Shown: positions 1 to 5,552 of the stretch, piece by piece
Numbering within the stretch: the stretch's first letter is position 1
Layout of the letters: each line of letters opens with the position of its first letter
Assembly (NCBI GenBank): GCA_022566355.1
Contig: JADFJB010000189.1
Span: 1 to 5,552 of the forward strand
DNA length: 5,552 nucleotides
Reading direction: 5' to 3'
Source: a candidate division KSB1 bacterium
Lineage (GTDB): Bacteria > Zhuqueibacterota > JdFR-76 > DREG01
Translations under genes and position numbers: made by a program
The notes under the pieces: generated by a model
The model's database searches: none
Seen by the model: only the letters and a program-made list of their open reading frames with translations
Told to the model about the DNA's origin: nothing

Positions 1-233
1 GTCCTAACAAACAAAAAAGTTCTCCTTGCTTGACGTGAAGGTTGATATTGAGGAGGACAGTTTTTTTTTCTTTTTTGAAGGGGTGCGCTATTATTTGAGG
101 GAAGCTTTTACTGACAGGAAAGCTTTTAGAGAGGTTAATCGTTTCTATAGCGTACTGCAATGCAATGTCATTTTAATTGAATTTGTTCATTGTTGATTAA
201 TCCAAATTCTCACTCCAAAAATTTCAACAACTT
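1..233. other. Left-edge region downstream of the radical SAM gene, no assignable gene
   Basis: This stretch lies beyond the stop of the minus-strand operon. I see no convincing gene and no clear hairpin-plus-T-run terminator for the operon. On the plus strand one frame is open from position 8 to a TGA at 194-196 (62 codons, no ATG, possible TTG or GTG starts at 26 and 35). It reads as a plausible charged/aromatic protein segment (for example EGVRYYLREAFTDRKAF) but has no recognisable family and no good ribosome binding site. It may be a relic or chance. A T-rich run sits at 61-76. A 9-base direct repeat (aagctttta) occurs at 102-110 and 120-128 within that open frame. Confidence 0.4.
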
Positions 234-1322
234 CTAAGTAGATTTGCTTATTTTTTCATGATCAATGGATATCATTGCATCGTCATGCCATGGATCATCG
301 GGAAATCTTTTCATCCAATTGAGTTTTTTAAAATGTTTCGCGCAATACCAACAGGGAAAAGCATCCAATTTTGTCAACTCTCCATTTTTATATCGACGAA
401 GTTTTTCTTTTTGGAAGCTGGAAATCATTTGGACATAATCGCCATACAAATCTAATAGATTATTGTCTTCCAAATTTCCAATTATATCGGTCATCGAATC
501 GCCATCAGCATATTCTGATAATTGGCAACAGAAGGTTATATTACCGCGATAGTCAACATAGATCGCCTGCATCGAAAGTGCGTTGCAATTAACCCAGGGT
601 GAATCATCATTTGGAAAGGCAACAAAGGGTTCTATCGAAACCTTATAAACAGCATTCAGTTCCTCGATTTCTTGTTTAATTTTATACCAATCCTCCGGAG
701 CCACATTCATTTGTTTGTAAGTGGTTTGTAAAGTTGGTTGAAGTGGAATTAAATATAATTGTTCGCTTTCGACTTTACTGGCTAAAATGGCCATGGCTTC
801 CAATTCATGGCGGTTGGTTGCGGTAATCACCATTTGAATACAAAATGGTAGTTTCTTAGCGCGGCAAACGCTGATAGCTTGTAAAGATTTGACAAAAGAT
901 CCCTTCTGCCGGATCTGGTCCATCGTCTCAGCGGTTGCCCCATCCATGCTGAAACAGAAACCTCTAAAACGATCTCGGTAAGGGTTTATAGTCTGGTAGG
1001 TTTTTTCAAACCTGGTTCCATTCGTGACCATTGCAATTTCATAACCGGCATCATAGAACTTCTTGACAATCTGTGGAAATTGTCGATGCAAAGTTGGTTC
1101 ACCTCCTGTAAATGATACAGCTGGAATATGAAGAGGACGAGCTTCATCAATAAGCTTGTCAACAAGATGTAGCGGAATATCCAAACGTGAATTAACCGGC
1201 CCGATAACAGATTGTAAGTCTTCCGGTAGGTCCTTTCTTGGTGCGATATCAGATCGTAAACAATGGACACAAGCATAATTACAGCGGTTAGTAATTTCAA
1301 ACCCTATCGATTCAATTGCCAC
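234..1322 (-). CDS. Radical SAM peptide-modifying enzyme with a short SPASM-like C-terminus
   Basis: The 362-residue product is a radical SAM enzyme. Cys14, Cys18 and Cys21 form the CxxxCxxC motif that binds the [4Fe-4S] cluster cleaving S-adenosylmethionine, and GGEP at 73-76 is the SAM-binding motif. The C-terminal part has Cys246, Cys265, Cys266, Cys324 and Cys327 (a CWYC pair), which looks like a reduced SPASM/twitch auxiliary-cluster domain with fewer cysteines than the usual seven. The start is GTG at 1322, overlapping the end of the kinase gene by 11 bases. An AAAGGAGG ribosome binding site lies nine bases upstream, so the two genes are probably translationally coupled. The stop is TAG. 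It is the last gene of the cassette, and context makes the 55-residue precursor its probable substrate. The core has no cysteine, so thioether (sactipeptide or ranthipeptide) chemistry is excluded. Epimerisation or a carbon-carbon or other crosslink is possible but unproven. Confidence 0.93.
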   Translation of the reverse strand: MAIESIGFEITNRCNYACVHCLRSDIAPRKDLPEDLQSVIGPVNSRLDIPLHLVDKLIDEARPLHIPAVSFTGGEPTLHRQFPQIVKKFYDAGYEIAMVTNGTRFEKTYQTINPYRDRFRGFCFSMDGATAETMDQIRQKGSFVKSLQAISVCRAKKLPFCIQMVITATNRHELEAMAILASKVESEQLYLIPLQPTLQTTYKQMNVAPEDWYKIKQEIEELNAVYKVSIEPFVAFPNDDSPWVNCNALSMQAIYVDYRGNITFCCQLSEYADGDSMTDIIGNLEDNNLLDLYGDYVQMISSFQKEKLRRYKNGELTKLDAFPCWYCAKHFKKLNWMKRFPDDPWHDDAMISIDHEKISKST

Positions 1323-2331
1323 AGAGGCTATCCTCCTTTACATTATTGTTCAATACAGCCTCTATTATTTTCGAAAGTTTTCCAGGATTATTTAGCAAAT
1401 CTTTTCCAGAAAGCAATAAATAGCAATCACTTTGTTTGATTAGATCTTTTAATACATCCAGATGAAGTTGTTTAAAGCGATGGGGTAAAAAAATGTAAGG
1501 GCTTTGTTGCAACAGGTAGGTTAATGCATTTATATGAGTGGTTGGTACTAGCCGGGTTGTTGGCTCATCTACTATCTGGGGAAAAATAACGGTATTTGGT
1601 GTACTATATTGAACAAATTGATTTGGATATATTTTCTGAATATCAATATGCTTTTTTTCATTAAATGGGACATCATAAATATGCTCTTTTAAATAATCCT
1701 TTGAGGGTTGATTGATAAAATTATCATTGAACTTAAAATCTCCAGGAAAAGAATGTACAGATATTTCTTTATTTTCCTTTTGCTGCAGTAAAACGATATC
1801 ATCAGATAAATAATTCCATCCACTTTCAACTAAATGCATTGTATTTGTAGATTTCCCCGAACCGGATTGACCAACAAATAAATAACCATTTCCAGCGTTT
1901 TCTAACGCTGCGGCATGAAGATAGAAAAGCTTTCTTGAATGTAATAGCATCACAATCGCCGTTAGAATAAATGCGTGAGATATCATGCGGGGGAATTTAA
2001 AAACTGATTCTTCAAAATGTCCCATTACTGTTTCGTTTGTAAAATCAATTTGTAACATAGATTTCTTATAACTAATATAAACAAACTCATCCAATTGATG
2101 TAACCTGAGAAGAGATTGTTTATCTGATATTAATTTACAACCATCAGGAATACTAATTGTTGAATTGGAAAATTTTAGATATAAAGGTGAGGAATCCTTT
2201 CCTCTGAAAGGATTGTTGGGTATGGAACAAAAAAGCTGTGATAAAGAAGATAAACTACTTTCAAGCTGATTGTCTGAATACTCAACAATTATCTCAATGC
2301 CATAAAGATTAAGTGTTTTATCCTTATCCAT
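1312..2331 (-). CDS. HPr kinase-like P-loop kinase of a RiPP cluster
   Basis: The 339-residue product matches the HPr-kinase-like proteins found in lasso-type peptide operons rather than the HprK/P of sugar regulation. The N-terminal ~130 residues lack a motif I recognise. The kinase core follows: LHAAALE at 138-144, the Walker A loop GQSGSGKST at 154-162, and LSDD at 175-178 carrying the paired aspartates expected near the active site. The rest resembles the C-terminal half of these kinases. In the paeninodin type of lasso cluster such a kinase phosphorylates the side chain of the precursor's C-terminal serine, and the precursor encoded just upstream ends in serine. The only start available is ATG at 2331, because an in-frame stop lies shortly upstream. 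An AAAGG sits just one base from it, closer than ideal. The gene follows the precursor after an 82-base gap holding an inverted repeat and overlaps the radical SAM gene. The phosphate acceptor is inferred. Confidence 0.9.
   Translation of the reverse strand: MDKDKTLNLYGIEIIVEYSDNQLESSLSSLSQLFCSIPNNPFRGKDSSPLYLKFSNSTISIPDGCKLISDKQSLLRLHQLDEFVYISYKKSMLQIDFTNETVMGHFEESVFKFPRMISHAFILTAIVMLLHSRKLFYLHAAALENAGNGYLFVGQSGSGKSTNTMHLVESGWNYLSDDIVLLQQKENKEISVHSFPGDFKFNDNFINQPSKDYLKEHIYDVPFNEKKHIDIQKIYPNQFVQYSTPNTVIFPQIVDEPTTRLVPTTHINALTYLLQQSPYIFLPHRFKQLHLDVLKDLIKQSDCYLLLSGKDLLNNPGKLSKIIEAVLNNNVKEDSLCGN
1332..1339 (-). promoter_or_regulatory. Strong ribosome binding site fixing the GTG start of the radical SAM gene
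   Basis: On the minus strand this reads AAAGGAGG, nine bases before the GTG at 1322. It lies wholly inside the 3' end of the kinase gene. It supports the GTG start and an 11-base overlap between the two reading frames, an arrangement typical of coupled translation. Confidence 0.8.
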
Positions 2332-2341
2332 TCCTTTGGAT

Positions 2342-2388
2342 TTTGTTGTAGCTTACAGTACTCAATGCTTGTTGAATAGTACAACAAA
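2342..2388 (-). promoter_or_regulatory. Inverted repeat (possible stem-loop) between precursor and kinase genes
   Basis: Two perfect 9-base arms, tttgttgta at 2342-2350 and tacaacaaa at 2380-2388, face each other across 29 bases. They sit in the 82-base gap after the precursor stop and before the kinase start. A smaller alternative pairing (gtact at 2358-2362 with agtac at 2378-2382) overlaps the right arm. There is no T-run, so this is not a standard intrinsic terminator. In RiPP operons a stem-loop here often keeps precursor mRNA more abundant than the enzyme genes. It could equally be an mRNA-stability element or a protein-binding site. Confidence 0.4.
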
Positions 2389-2413
2389 CTACGACATTCA
2401 AATCCTCTCTTAA

Positions 2414-2581
2414 TTATGATGTTCCAACAGCAGCTGCTCCTGGAGCTGCAGCTCCTGGAAAAAGCGTCGATTTGACCAAAGACTCTTGCTTGGTTAACTT
2501 TGGCTCAATAAAGGCTTTCAGCTTTCTTTTTTCTTTGTTATCTTTATTGTTACTTTTATTTTTTTCCGCTCGTGATGCCAT
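2414..2581 (-). CDS. RiPP precursor peptide with Ala/Gly/Pro-rich core and C-terminal Ser
   Basis: A 55-codon gene starts at ATG 2581 with GGAGG four bases upstream, begins 11 bases after the B2 stop and ends in TAA at 2414. Residues 1-23 are rich in Lys and Asn. Residues 24-39 read FIEPKLTKQESLVKST, matching the lasso-type leader pattern YxxPxL...GxL...T with Phe for Tyr and Glu for Gly. Thr39 would be the conserved penultimate leader residue, which predicts cleavage after Leu40 and a 15-residue core, FPGAAAPGAAAVGTS. The core carries a tandem PGAAA repeat and ends in Ser55, a candidate acceptor for the neighbouring kinase. It has no Cys, Asp or Glu, so no thioether and no Asp/Glu-based lasso ring can form. 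The assignment rests on its place among three maturation genes, its ribosome binding site and the leader pattern. The cleavage site is inferred. Confidence 0.82.
   Translation of the reverse strand: MASRAEKNKSNNKDNKEKRKLKAFIEPKLTKQESLVKSTLFPGAAAPGAAAVGTS
2429..2459 (-). repeat. Tandem 15-base repeat encoding PGAAA-PGAAA, with palindromes
   Basis: Within the precursor core, two adjacent 15-base units on the minus strand, CCAGGAGCTGCAGCT and CCAGGAGCAGCTGCT, both encode Pro-Gly-Ala-Ala-Ala. They differ at two synonymous positions. The same stretch contains two perfect palindromes, ggagctgcagctcc at 2442-2455 and agcagctgct at 2429-2438. The most likely origin is an internal codon-unit duplication. 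Confidence 0.75.
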
Positions 2582-2585
2582 GAAA

Positions 2586-2590
2586 CCTCC
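2586..2590 (-). promoter_or_regulatory. Ribosome binding site of the precursor gene
   Basis: GGAGG on the minus strand lies four bases before the ATG at 2581, in the 11-base gap after the B2 stop codon. It is the best argument that the 55-codon frame is a real translated gene. Confidence 0.8.
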
Positions 2591-2592
2591 AA

Positions 2593-2943
2593 TTAGTATG
2601 AGTAATTCGTGTAATTGTAAATTAACTTGAAATCTTTCACTTTATTTTCTGTATCCGCAAAAATCTTGCCATTTAATATTAACCAACTGTGACCTAATAT
2701 ATTGGCTTGCTTATTCTGAACTCCAATTTTAAAATCTACTGAACTATTATAGTATCGTAAGAAACGGTAGAGTACTAAAGACCTTTTTAAACAAGTCTTT
2801 TTTAATATAGGATTAATTAGATTTAAGATGAAATCAACATAGGAGACTAATTTGTAAATTTCATGTTTGGAAAGTGGGGCACCGATATACTTTTTTGAGC
2901 TTAAGAGCTGTAATACCCGGGTTATATTCCGAAATCGCACCAT
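2593..2943 (-). CDS. Lasso peptide biosynthesis B2-type leader peptidase (transglutaminase-like)
   Basis: This is a small papain/transglutaminase-fold protease of the lasso B2 family, the enzyme class that cuts the leader from RiPP precursors. Counting from the ATG at 2943 it has 116 residues. The family block CLKRSLVLYRFLR carries the nucleophile Cys51, GHSWLI carries His85, and IFAD carries Asp97. The 12-residue His-to-Asp spacing is the same as in the microcin J25 protease McjB, and the Cys-to-His spacing is close to it. No B1-like leader-binding domain is fused at the N-terminus. The frame stays open to a TTG at 2982, giving 129 residues with a hydrophobic extra N-terminus. I prefer ATG 2943 because a promoter-like sequence overlaps the longer version, but neither start has a good ribosome binding site. 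The TAA at 2593 is followed 11 bases later by the precursor gene. It appears to be the first gene of the operon. Confidence 0.88.
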   Translation of the reverse strand: MVRFRNITRVLQLLSSKKYIGAPLSKHEIYKLVSYVDFILNLINPILKKTCLKRSLVLYRFLRYYNSSVDFKIGVQNKQANILGHSWLILNGKIFADTENKVKDFKLIYNYTNYSY

Positions 2944-2953
2944 GATATTTATT

Positions 2954-2982
2954 ATTATACTCCAGACAAATATTCTGCTCAA
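2954..2982 (-). promoter_or_regulatory. Predicted sigma70-type promoter of the RiPP operon
   Basis: On the minus strand TTGAGC (2982-2977, four of six matches to the -35 box) is followed by exactly 17 bases and a perfect TATAAT (2959-2954). Transcription would start near 2947, only about four bases before the ATG at 2943, giving an almost leaderless mRNA. The alternative TTG start at 2982 would place this promoter inside the coding region. It is a pattern match only. Confidence 0.5.
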
Positions 2983-3386: not shown

Positions 3387-3569
3387 TCAATAAATAATTA
3401 AGATAAGATTTTTTTTCACAAAAAAGGGGTGAGAACAATCCCAAGTTAATTAATACTTTTGTTAGTATCAGCGAGGAAGAAATTTATTCGCAAGTAATGG
3501 TATTTTTTGTATGAGAAAGCTACTCGTCAAATTAAGTTTAAACTAATCAATAATTTCATTTAACAATTG

Positions 3570-3577
3570 AAGGGGGG
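3570..3577 (+). promoter_or_regulatory. Ribosome binding site of the secreted-protein gene
   Basis: A purine run, AAGGGGGG, ends four bases before the ATG at 3582. It fixes the start, and a signal peptide follows directly in the same frame. Confidence 0.7.
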
Positions 3578-3581
3578 AAAC

Positions 3582-5552
3582 ATGTATAGTCAATATTATA
3601 TTAATCAAGTTGTATTTTATAGGTTTTTGTTTGTCGTTATTTTTGTTTTTTCAATTGCTCCATTCACCAGCAAAGGTTTGAATGCCCAGGTACCAGATTT
3701 TAAATGGATGCACCCTGCAGGAGTCGTTGGTAATGATGAGGGGAATGATTTAGTAATTGATGGTGCTATAAACAGCTATGTTGTGGGCCGATTTATAAGA
3801 ATAGCTGATTATTCCGATTCAGCACTTATTGGAGTAGGCAGCCAAGAAGTGTTTATTGCTAAATATGATCTCAATGGCAATGACTTATGGACAAAACGAG
3901 CGGGAAGTGCAAGTAATGATCCGGAAGCTGACAGAGGTAGTGCAATTGGCGTGGAGAAACTTGGAAATATTCTAATGACTGGCCGCTTTGTTAGTAATGC
4001 GGACTTTGGCACCAATTCGTTAACAAGCGCAGATGGACAGGACTTTTTCATCGGTAAGTTGGCGGAGCAGATCGTCCTCATCAACGAAGTCGTAACCGAT
4101 CCTCAGCAGGATTGGACCGATAACAGCGGGGGCAATGGTGTTCAATTTGATTCTAAACCAGGCAATGGTACTATCAGCAACACAGATGAATGGCTCGAAA
4201 TATACAATGCCGGTGTCTCTGCTATTGATTTGACTGAGGGAACCGGTTGGACTTTGGATTTTATAGATGGCTCCGATGCTACATTAGATTTTCAAAACCC
4301 GGGATCTACCGTATTTGTCTTTAGTGATGGTGGATCTTTAACTAATTTCCAACCCGGTGAATTCCTCGTTATCGGCAATCCACCAGGATCCATGAATAAC
4401 GATATTTTTCTTGAGTTGAAAAATGCATCTGGCACCATCGTTGATGATGTCGAATTGGGAGATGATAAAGAAAGTGATGGCGATGGCGATGGCGCGGCCG
4501 ATGGCAGTTCAAACGGCGGTAATGCGAGCAGCATCGTGGATGAAGCCATAGCCCGAGTCCCCAACGGCATCGATACAGATAATGATGTGAACGATTTCAT
4601 TCAACAGCATACAACTATCGGATTTGCAAATGATGCTGCTTTTGATTTTAGCGATGCGCCAAGTGGGGGCGATGCTGGGGTACCTCCAGATAGTTATCCC
4701 ACCTTATTGAAGGATAATGGGGCGCGTCATGTGCTTAATGGCACAACTTTCCTGGGATTTGCAGTGGATGCCGAACCAGATGGCCAGCCCGATGCGACAG
4801 CAACTGACGACGATACCAATGGTGTCCCGGACGATGAGGATGGTGTTGTGTTTACTTCATTCCTCGCGCCAGGGAATAATGCGACTGCGGACGTTACGGC
4901 ATCCATTGCAGGCAAACTAAACGCGTGGATCGACTTTAATCGTGACGGTGATTGGGAAGATGCAAATGAACAGATCTTTACCAACCTGGATTTGAATGCC
5001 GGCCTCAATAGTGTTCTGACTTATTCCGTGCCTGCATCTGCATTACAAGGAGTCACTTTTGCTCGTTTTCGATTTAATTCAACCGGCGATCTGTCATTTG
5101 ATGGCCTGGCCCTGGATGGCGAAGTTGAGGATTACAAGGTAGAAATTGGTATTACCGATTGTTTCATCACACCCACAACCGACACCAACCAGGTTAACAG
5201 TCAGCACTCTTCAACCGTAACCGTTCAGAAAGATGGTATTAACCAACAAGGAGTTGAGGTGACTTTCGAAGTTTTCAAAGGTCCCAATTTAGGCCAAACC
5301 GGTTCCGGCACCAGTCCAACCAATGGCAGTGGCCAAGCCACATTTATTTATACCAGCAACGGTACGGCTGGCACGGATTCCATCAAAGCAAGCGGTTCGA
5401 TTGATGGTGTTCCTTTTGAATGTTTTGCTCAGAAAGTTTGGGTAGATAATATGTGCACTTTGGAGGCAGAAACGGACACGAATCAAGTCGGTACGGATCA
5501 TACATTGACTGTAACTATAAAACAGGATGGAGTTGCAAAATCGGGTATTCCG
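3582..5552 (+). CDS. Large secreted multidomain protein (SBBP repeats, lamin-tail, GEVED, Ig-like), 3' truncated by window
   Basis: The frame is open from ATG 3582 to the window edge (657 codons, no stop). Residues 1-35 are a signal peptide with Arg14, a Phe/Val/Ile-rich core and probable cleavage at LNA-Q (35/36), so the protein is exported. Residues 42-162 hold two SBBP-type beta-propeller repeats (FIAKYDLNGNDLW, DGQDFFIGKL). Residues ~164-350 form a lamin-tail domain, starting IVLINEV, with DEWLEIYNAG and the closing PNGIDTDNDVNDF pattern. An Asp-Gly run (299-304) lies inside it. Residues ~353-520 are a GEVED domain with the family hallmarks SYPTLLKDNGARH, DDEDGV, WIDFNRDGDWEDA and GEVEDY at 513-518. 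From ~527 tandem bacterial Ig-like (invasin/Big_1-type) repeats begin. The role is unknown. Surface adhesion or display is likely by domain type, and a C-terminal sorting or anchor signal may lie outside the window. It is divergent from the RiPP operon and probably unrelated to it. Confidence 0.92.
   Translation, partial: MYSQYYINQVVFYRFLFVVIFVFSIAPFTSKGLNAQVPDFKWMHPAGVVGNDEGNDLVIDGAINSYVVGRFIRIADYSDSALIGVGSQEVFIAKYDLNGNDLWTKRAGSASNDPEADRGSAIGVEKLGNILMTGRFVSNADFGTNSLTSADGQDFFIGKLAEQIVLINEVVTDPQQDWTDNSGGNGVQFDSKPGNGTISNTDEWLEIYNAGVSAIDLTEGTGWTLDFIDGSDATLDFQNPGSTVFVFSDGGSLTNFQPGEFLVIGNPPGSMNNDIFLELKNASGTIVDDVELGDDKESDGDGDGAADGSSNGGNASSIVDEAIARVPNGIDTDNDVNDFIQQHTTIGFANDAAFDFSDAPSGGDAGVPPDSYPTLLKDNGARHVLNGTTFLGFAVDAEPDGQPDATATDDDTNGVPDDEDGVVFTSFLAPGNNATADVTASIAGKLNAWIDFNRDGDWEDANEQIFTNLDLNAGLNSVLTYSVPASALQGVTFARFRFNSTGDLSFDGLALDGEVEDYKVEIGITDCFITPTTDTNQVNSQHSSTVTVQKDGINQQGVEVTFEVFKGPNLGQTGSGTSPTNGSGQATFIYTSNGTAGTDSIKASGSIDGVPFECFAQKVWVDNMCTLEAETDTNQVGTDHTLTVTIKQDGVAKSGIP
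4476..4493 (+). repeat. Short (gatggc)x3 microrepeat encoding Asp-Gly
   Basis: Three perfect copies of gatggc encode DGDGDG (residues 299-304) inside an acidic loop of the lamin-tail domain. It could bind calcium, as many Asp/Gly loops in secreted proteins do, but no complete calcium motif is evident. Confidence 0.6.
5160..5552 (+). repeat. Tandem Ig-like domain repeats, ~98-residue period, second copy cut by window edge
   Basis: Unit one starts at Cys527 and unit two at Cys625, 98 residues later. Both share the frame C-(3-5 residues)-TDTNQV, then (S/T)-V-T-(V/I) strands, KDG/QDG and a closing G-V/I segment. Unit one also has Cys614 near its end (PFECFA), which suggests a Cys527-Cys614 disulfide. 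The DNA of the two copies has diverged well beyond codon third positions, so the duplication is old. More copies probably follow outside the window. Confidence 0.75.

Follow-up and report, generated by a model that had tools for sequence, protein, structure and literature searches.

The question raised by this locus is what peptide is made by an operon in which a lasso-type B2 peptidase, a precursor peptide, an HprK-like kinase and a radical SAM enzyme are encoded together, with no lasso cyclase among them. The window analysed here is the whole of contig C189, 5552 bp, of a KSB1 MAG of 4.62 Mb (213 contigs, 98.5% complete). Its operon genes are closely spaced on the minus strand and run from the B2 peptidase through the precursor, the kinase and the radical SAM enzyme to the start of an ABC ATPase. 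The first four genes have the order and span given in a preliminary description of this DNA, and the precursor is indeed second in the C189 operon. The start of the radical SAM gene overlaps the end of the kinase gene by 11 nt, and GGAGG ribosome-binding sites are present for the precursor and radical SAM genes. B2 is most likely the operon's first gene, since a divergent gene for a secreted protein starts at 3567. That protein (3567-5552), open at the contig end, is large and has SBBP, LTD and GEVED domains. At the opposite edge, 53 codons of an ABC transporter ATPase-like N-terminus (2..160, minus strand), cut before Walker A and with weak family matches only, run off C189, so the end of the operon is not visible in the window.

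The B2-type leader peptidase (Transglut_core3, 129 aa; 2593..2982, minus strand) scored 50.7 bits against Pfam PF13471 (cut-off 26) and 45.8 bits against NCBIfam NF033537, lasso_biosyn_B2 (cut-off 33), passing both and thereby showing the feature of a lasso B2 protein. The motifs CLKRSL (Cys 64) and GHSW (His 98) are retained, and the start codon is ambiguous between the TTG at 2982, as called, and an internal ATG at 2943. The HprK-like kinase (339 aa; 1312..2331, minus strand) has an intact P-loop, GQSGSGKST, and an intact LSDD motif; it matched Hpr_kinase_C with an E value of 1e-7, slightly below the Pfam cut-off, and HprK-related NCBIfam families far below their equivalog cut-offs. A query with the kinase against a wider genome-contig collection gave no match, and neither did a search of viral contigs. 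Kinase-containing, lasso-related machinery was a correct description of these genes.

The precursor (55 aa; 2414..2581, minus strand) has homologues, at the equivalent position, in both other cluster-bearing genomes of the phylum (loci L004 and L026) and in no further one; plain BLASTP aligned it with the L004 homologue at 45% over 33 aa. A profile built with the L004 and L026 sequences, which therefore includes both by construction, detected no additional cluster among 81 genomes of the phylum. The leaders of the three cyclase-less precursors share the pattern [FY]xEPxLTx[HQ]ExLxxxT, with a distance of 15 residues from the aromatic residue to the Thr; in the window this F/YxxP...T recognition motif is FIEPKLTKQESLVKST (2465..2512, minus strand). 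The same spacing is found in five precursors of three KSB1 lasso clusters (L023-L025), and the leader is kept across different families of the phylum. No Cys is present in the precursor; thioether chemistry is excluded because the core lacks Cys, and assignment to the sactipeptides or ranthipeptides was rejected on this ground.

By analogy with lasso B2 systems, cleavage after T-L would leave the 15-residue core FPGAAAPGAAAVGTS (2417..2461, minus strand), which ends in Ser and has a short internal PGAAA-PGAAA repeat. The ring acceptor of a lasso peptide is an Asp or Glu at core positions 7-9 (PMC9266682). Counting the core from two residues after the Thr (T assumed at -2), none of the three cyclase-less precursors has Asp or Glu at positions 7-9, whereas all five KSB1 precursors encoded beside an Asn-synthase cyclase have Asp9, in what is a small comparison of related genomes. 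As acidic residues are entirely missing from the window core, the result for its ring acceptor is independent of the register. The correlation between core and cyclase provides a simple sorting rule for genome mining.

No Asn-synthase cyclase was found on C189. In the host genome PF00733 (Asn_synthase) has a single match, on contig C198, which was rejected as a cyclase: it scores much better as QueC and adjoins a QueE-like gene. No lasso cyclase was found in the 98.5%-complete assembly. The L026 operon could be read past its B1 gene and contains no cyclase, and the Asn-synthase genes that the L004 and L026 genomes (G048 and G053) do possess lie elsewhere in those genomes. The gene calls are firm, and so is the finding that the assembly lacks a cyclase. 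The cyclase reported as missing from the operon is therefore missing from the host assembly and from the homologous operons as well, and a linear or otherwise modified peptide, as first suggested, is a better reading than a lasso for a core without ring-forming Asp/Glu. Lacking both a cyclase and an Asp or Glu at core positions 7-9, the system very likely yields a product that is not a lasso.

The four genes had been presented as an operon by themselves, but a B1/RRE, a formyltransferase and a nucleotidyltransferase very probably belong to it too. The only PqqD protein encoded by the host lies 2 kb from the start of contig C51. C51 carries, in this order, an ABC-2 ATPase, a permease, the PqqD/B1 protein and a formyltransferase, with an NTP_transf_5 nucleotidyltransferase on the other strand. 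Jointly, C189 and C51 hold the set that is contiguous in L004 and L026, where B1/PqqD directly follows the kinase; the C51 formyltransferase is 42% identical to that of L004, and the G+C content agrees, with 0.30-0.40 for the C189 genes and 0.33-0.36 on C51 apart from the formyltransferase gene. No overlap between C189 and C51 was found, and the sequence at the left contig end occurs just once in the genome. We infer that the two contigs carry parts of a single operon, split by a gap in the assembly that could hold other genes, and B1 is very likely to lie in the same operon as the window genes. A cyclase and a B1 gene just outside the window had been named in the preliminary description as one finding that would speak against it. 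Beyond the ABC-ATPase start at the contig edge, the B1 gene is very probably there, by its presence on C51 and its place after the kinase in the relatives, whereas the cyclase was not found. An ORF whose end lies at the start of C51 (L009:2-205) has an OB-fold (PF01336) that resembles a class II tRNA synthetase anticodon-binding domain; this stand-alone fragment ends just where the ABC ATPase begins.

The host B1 matches the lasso B1 models below their cut-offs. Judged by pairwise scores, it is close to 9x90_B, a lasso PqqD chaperone (E 3e-8), and to TbiB1 (1e-7), with an E value of 0.5 to 9x8z_B, a PqqD family protein whose chain is presumably LppB. The best family of the C51 formyltransferase is Fmt, below cut-off, and the ArnA sugar formyltransferase family was also matched; the host's true Fmt is a different gene, on C96. 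A homologue of the formyltransferase in genome G013 was set aside, as it lies outside any such cluster. With a G+C content of 53.7%, against 30-40% in the other genes and 33-39% in the region, the formyltransferase gene (L009:2587-3600) may be a recent passenger, or horizontal acquisition.

The same gene set is present in two more KSB1 genomes. L004, on a 6218-bp contig, contains the end of a nucleotidyltransferase (NTP_transf_5), two opposite-strand ORFs, the formyltransferase, radical SAM, B2, precursor and kinase genes and a PqqD/B1 gene cut at the contig end; L026 contains a nucleotidyltransferase end, the formyltransferase, a radical SAM stub, B2, precursor, kinase and B1. The co-occurrence of B2, kinase and radical SAM families, proposed earlier as a check, is thus found in L004, and in L026 with the radical SAM enzyme as a stub only. 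The candidate division KSB1 bacterium isolate KSB J3, whose 6218-bp contig is that of L004, is a relative with the same genes, and this contig was the only one recovered from the wider genome-contig collection with a radical SAM profile. Only three such clusters are known, all of them in MAGs. Apart from generic radical SAMs (~25%), plasmid searches returned only a PqqD-nucleotidyltransferase-HPr kinase array of Crinalium, which was rejected because no radical SAM gene lies beside it. The flanks L004:1798-3144 and 5958-6218 are 98-99% identical to L026, and the segment between them (radical SAM body, B2, precursor and kinase) has only 39-52% protein identity. Either strains may swap a radical SAM-B2-precursor-kinase cassette or L004 may be a chimeric assembly. 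The L004 radical SAM gene is frameshifted where the 99%-identical stretch common to L026 ends, and about 51 residues are left of the L026 enzyme, with B2, precursor, kinase, B1 and formyltransferase kept; decay of the cluster in these two genomes is possible.

The radical SAM enzyme of the window (362 aa, GTG start; 234..1322, minus strand) passes PF04055 with 65 bits and has the CX3CX2C motif at 14/18/21. Five further Cys, at 246-266 and 324/327, form the pattern CX13GX4CC...CX2C, which we take to fit one auxiliary cluster in a twitch-like C-terminal domain; the match to PF13186 (SPASM) was below cut-off. An AlphaFold model made from a two-sequence alignment reached a pLDDT of 52, too poor for a fold search. 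Candidate chemistries are epimerisation, a C-C link and action on a sugar.

Altogether, these data are best explained by a cyclase-less branch of the machinery for phosphorylated lasso peptides. We regard this reading as a whole as reasonably likely, and favour, with moderate confidence, a linear phosphorylated peptide as the product. The discrete B1/RRE of C51, taken to belong to the same operon, would bind the precursor at the F/YxxPxL motif in its leader, and the B2 cysteine peptidase would then release the core. The HprK-like kinase would phosphorylate one hydroxyl group in the core, most likely that of the C-terminal Ser, by analogy with pseudomycoidin and paeninodin. PsmK and PsmN phosphorylate and glycosylate a C-terminal Ser (PMC9266682), and linear phosphorylated products of cyclase-less relatives have been demonstrated for the linear polyphosphorylated peptides (LPP) (PMC13381572). 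The kinase target is uncertain because neither candidate site is conserved: the L004 and L026 cores do not end in Ser, and the Ser at core position 3 that serves as the LPP site is absent in all three cores. The nucleotidyltransferase may attach a sugar to the phosphate, and the radical SAM enzyme would act further on peptide or sugar; the formyltransferase may formylate a free amine. The ABC-2 transporters would export the product, and no lasso ring would be formed.

Four other explanations have to be weighed against this one. That the locus is a normal phosphorylated lasso cluster, with its cyclase in the unassembled gap beside the ABC ATPase, would fit an operon inside which C189 ends and a C51 that begins with a truncated ORF, leaving a gap; yet the near-complete genome has no Asn synthase other than QueC, the homologous L026 operon reads through without a cyclase and the window core has nothing to close a ring with in the form of Asp or Glu, and we consider this very improbable. 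It is also unlikely, if somewhat less so, that the locus is a decaying lasso remnant that lost its cyclase and makes no product. Broken radical SAM genes in both relatives would agree with decay, but all complete genes of the window are intact with their catalytic motifs, the precursor and radical SAM genes have good ribosome-binding sites and the leader has been conserved across families within the phylum.

The remaining two alternatives concern the radical SAM enzyme, which had been described as standing in for the cyclase. If it truly replaced the cyclase, a C-linked crosslink or epimers in the Ala/Gly/Val core would be the main modification and the kinase would be secondary. The enzyme in the operon is intact, has the twitch-like auxiliary cluster pattern and overlaps the kinase gene, it is the best conserved of the set between host and L004 (64% identity, versus 27-30% for kinase and B2), and PoyD and YydG, both epimerases of the radical SAM type, modify residues with no Cys involved (PMC9266682). 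However, it matched no characterised RiPP radical SAM family in NCBIfam above cut-off, and it is no fixed substitute for a cyclase, because L026 (G053) retains a stub of 51 residues beside an otherwise kept cluster; we find this replacement doubtful. About equally doubtful is that the radical SAM enzyme, formyltransferase and nucleotidyltransferase act on a peptide-bound sugar phosphate and not on the backbone. This would accord with the ArnA match of the formyltransferase, with PsmN, which adds hexoses to phosphoserine (PMC9266682), and with the PDB matches of the radical SAM enzyme, all to cytosylglucuronate decarboxylase, a sugar-nucleotide enzyme; but these extend over no more than residues 53-173, the generic radical SAM core, and Fmt remains the best formyltransferase family, albeit under cut-off.

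Among known systems, SynChlorMet (ScmC kinase-like, ScmD PqqD, ScmE and ScmF radical SAM) shows weak similarity to the kinase, PqqD and radical SAM proteins, and membership was rejected with 35, 30, 57 and 67 bits for ScmC/D/E/F against NCBIfam cut-offs of 125, 100, 400 and 400. Clusters of the paeninodin/pseudomycoidin type share B1, B2, an HprK-like kinase and a nucleotidyltransferase, as well as the C-terminal Ser of the window core; the KSB1 cluster differs in having neither a cyclase nor a ring-forming Asp/Glu, in its added radical SAM enzyme and formyltransferase, and in a leader with F/YxxP where theirs has WxxP. The canonical KSB1 lasso clusters L023, L024 and L025 belong to the same phylum and have the same leader spacing, with an HprK-like kinase in L023 and L024 and a nucleotidyltransferase in L024 and L025, but have an Asn-synthase cyclase, Asp9 cores and a YG motif in the leader. 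L024 (1403-9766) encodes three different precursors, the kinase, a methyltransferase-like ORF, an ABC transporter and the nucleotidyltransferase. In the open-access literature we found no paper combining KSB1 and lasso peptides and no description of B2, radical SAM and kinase without a cyclase.

The gene combination had been judged unusual, yet it has a precedent: a cyclase-less RiPP family with kinase, RRE and nucleotidyltransferase was published in May 2026, the LPP of Bacillota (Popov et al., Nat Commun 2026, PMC13381572). They are the closest relatives described so far, but they are described as restricted to that phylum, with another peptidase, and the text of that paper mentions neither a radical SAM enzyme nor a formyltransferase. 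Shared with LPP are a precursor with a lasso-like leader, a discrete RRE, an HprK-like kinase, a nucleotidyltransferase, an ABC exporter and the lack of a macrolactam cyclase; L004 and L026 have this set except for the exporter, and the host has all of it if C189 and C51 are one operon. The LPP motif YxxPxVLxHQxIxFETxxS has the same spacing of 15 and, by eye, closely resembles the KSB1 leader. In contrast, LPP clusters use a SipW-like SpI signal peptidase, of which no ORF was seen in the window, L026 or L004 operons, where a cysteine B2 is encoded; they have the Ser at core position 3 that the KSB1 cores lack; and the RRE of the host scores closer to lasso RREs in the PDB than it does to the presumed LppB chain. 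The KSB1 cluster therefore appears to function as LPP systems do, but we do not assign it to that family; that the cyclase was lost independently is the simpler explanation, given the B2 in place of SpI, the missing Ser3 and the scores of the RRE. More tentatively, it may represent a separate KSB1 RiPP family of linear peptides, with leader removal by B1/B2, HprK-type phosphorylation, radical SAM action on a Cys-free, Ala/Gly-rich core and N-formylation, which arose independently of the Bacillota LPPs through cyclase loss from lasso machinery. Such a cluster would be a natural system for B2 cleavage uncoupled from ring closure and would bring together a radical SAM enzyme and leaders of the lasso type. 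The comparison suggests that the lasso toolkit of RRE, B2, kinase and nucleotidyltransferase has lost its cyclase on at least two occasions: in Bacillota, where the protease is of the signal-peptidase type, and in KSB1, where it is the classical B2.
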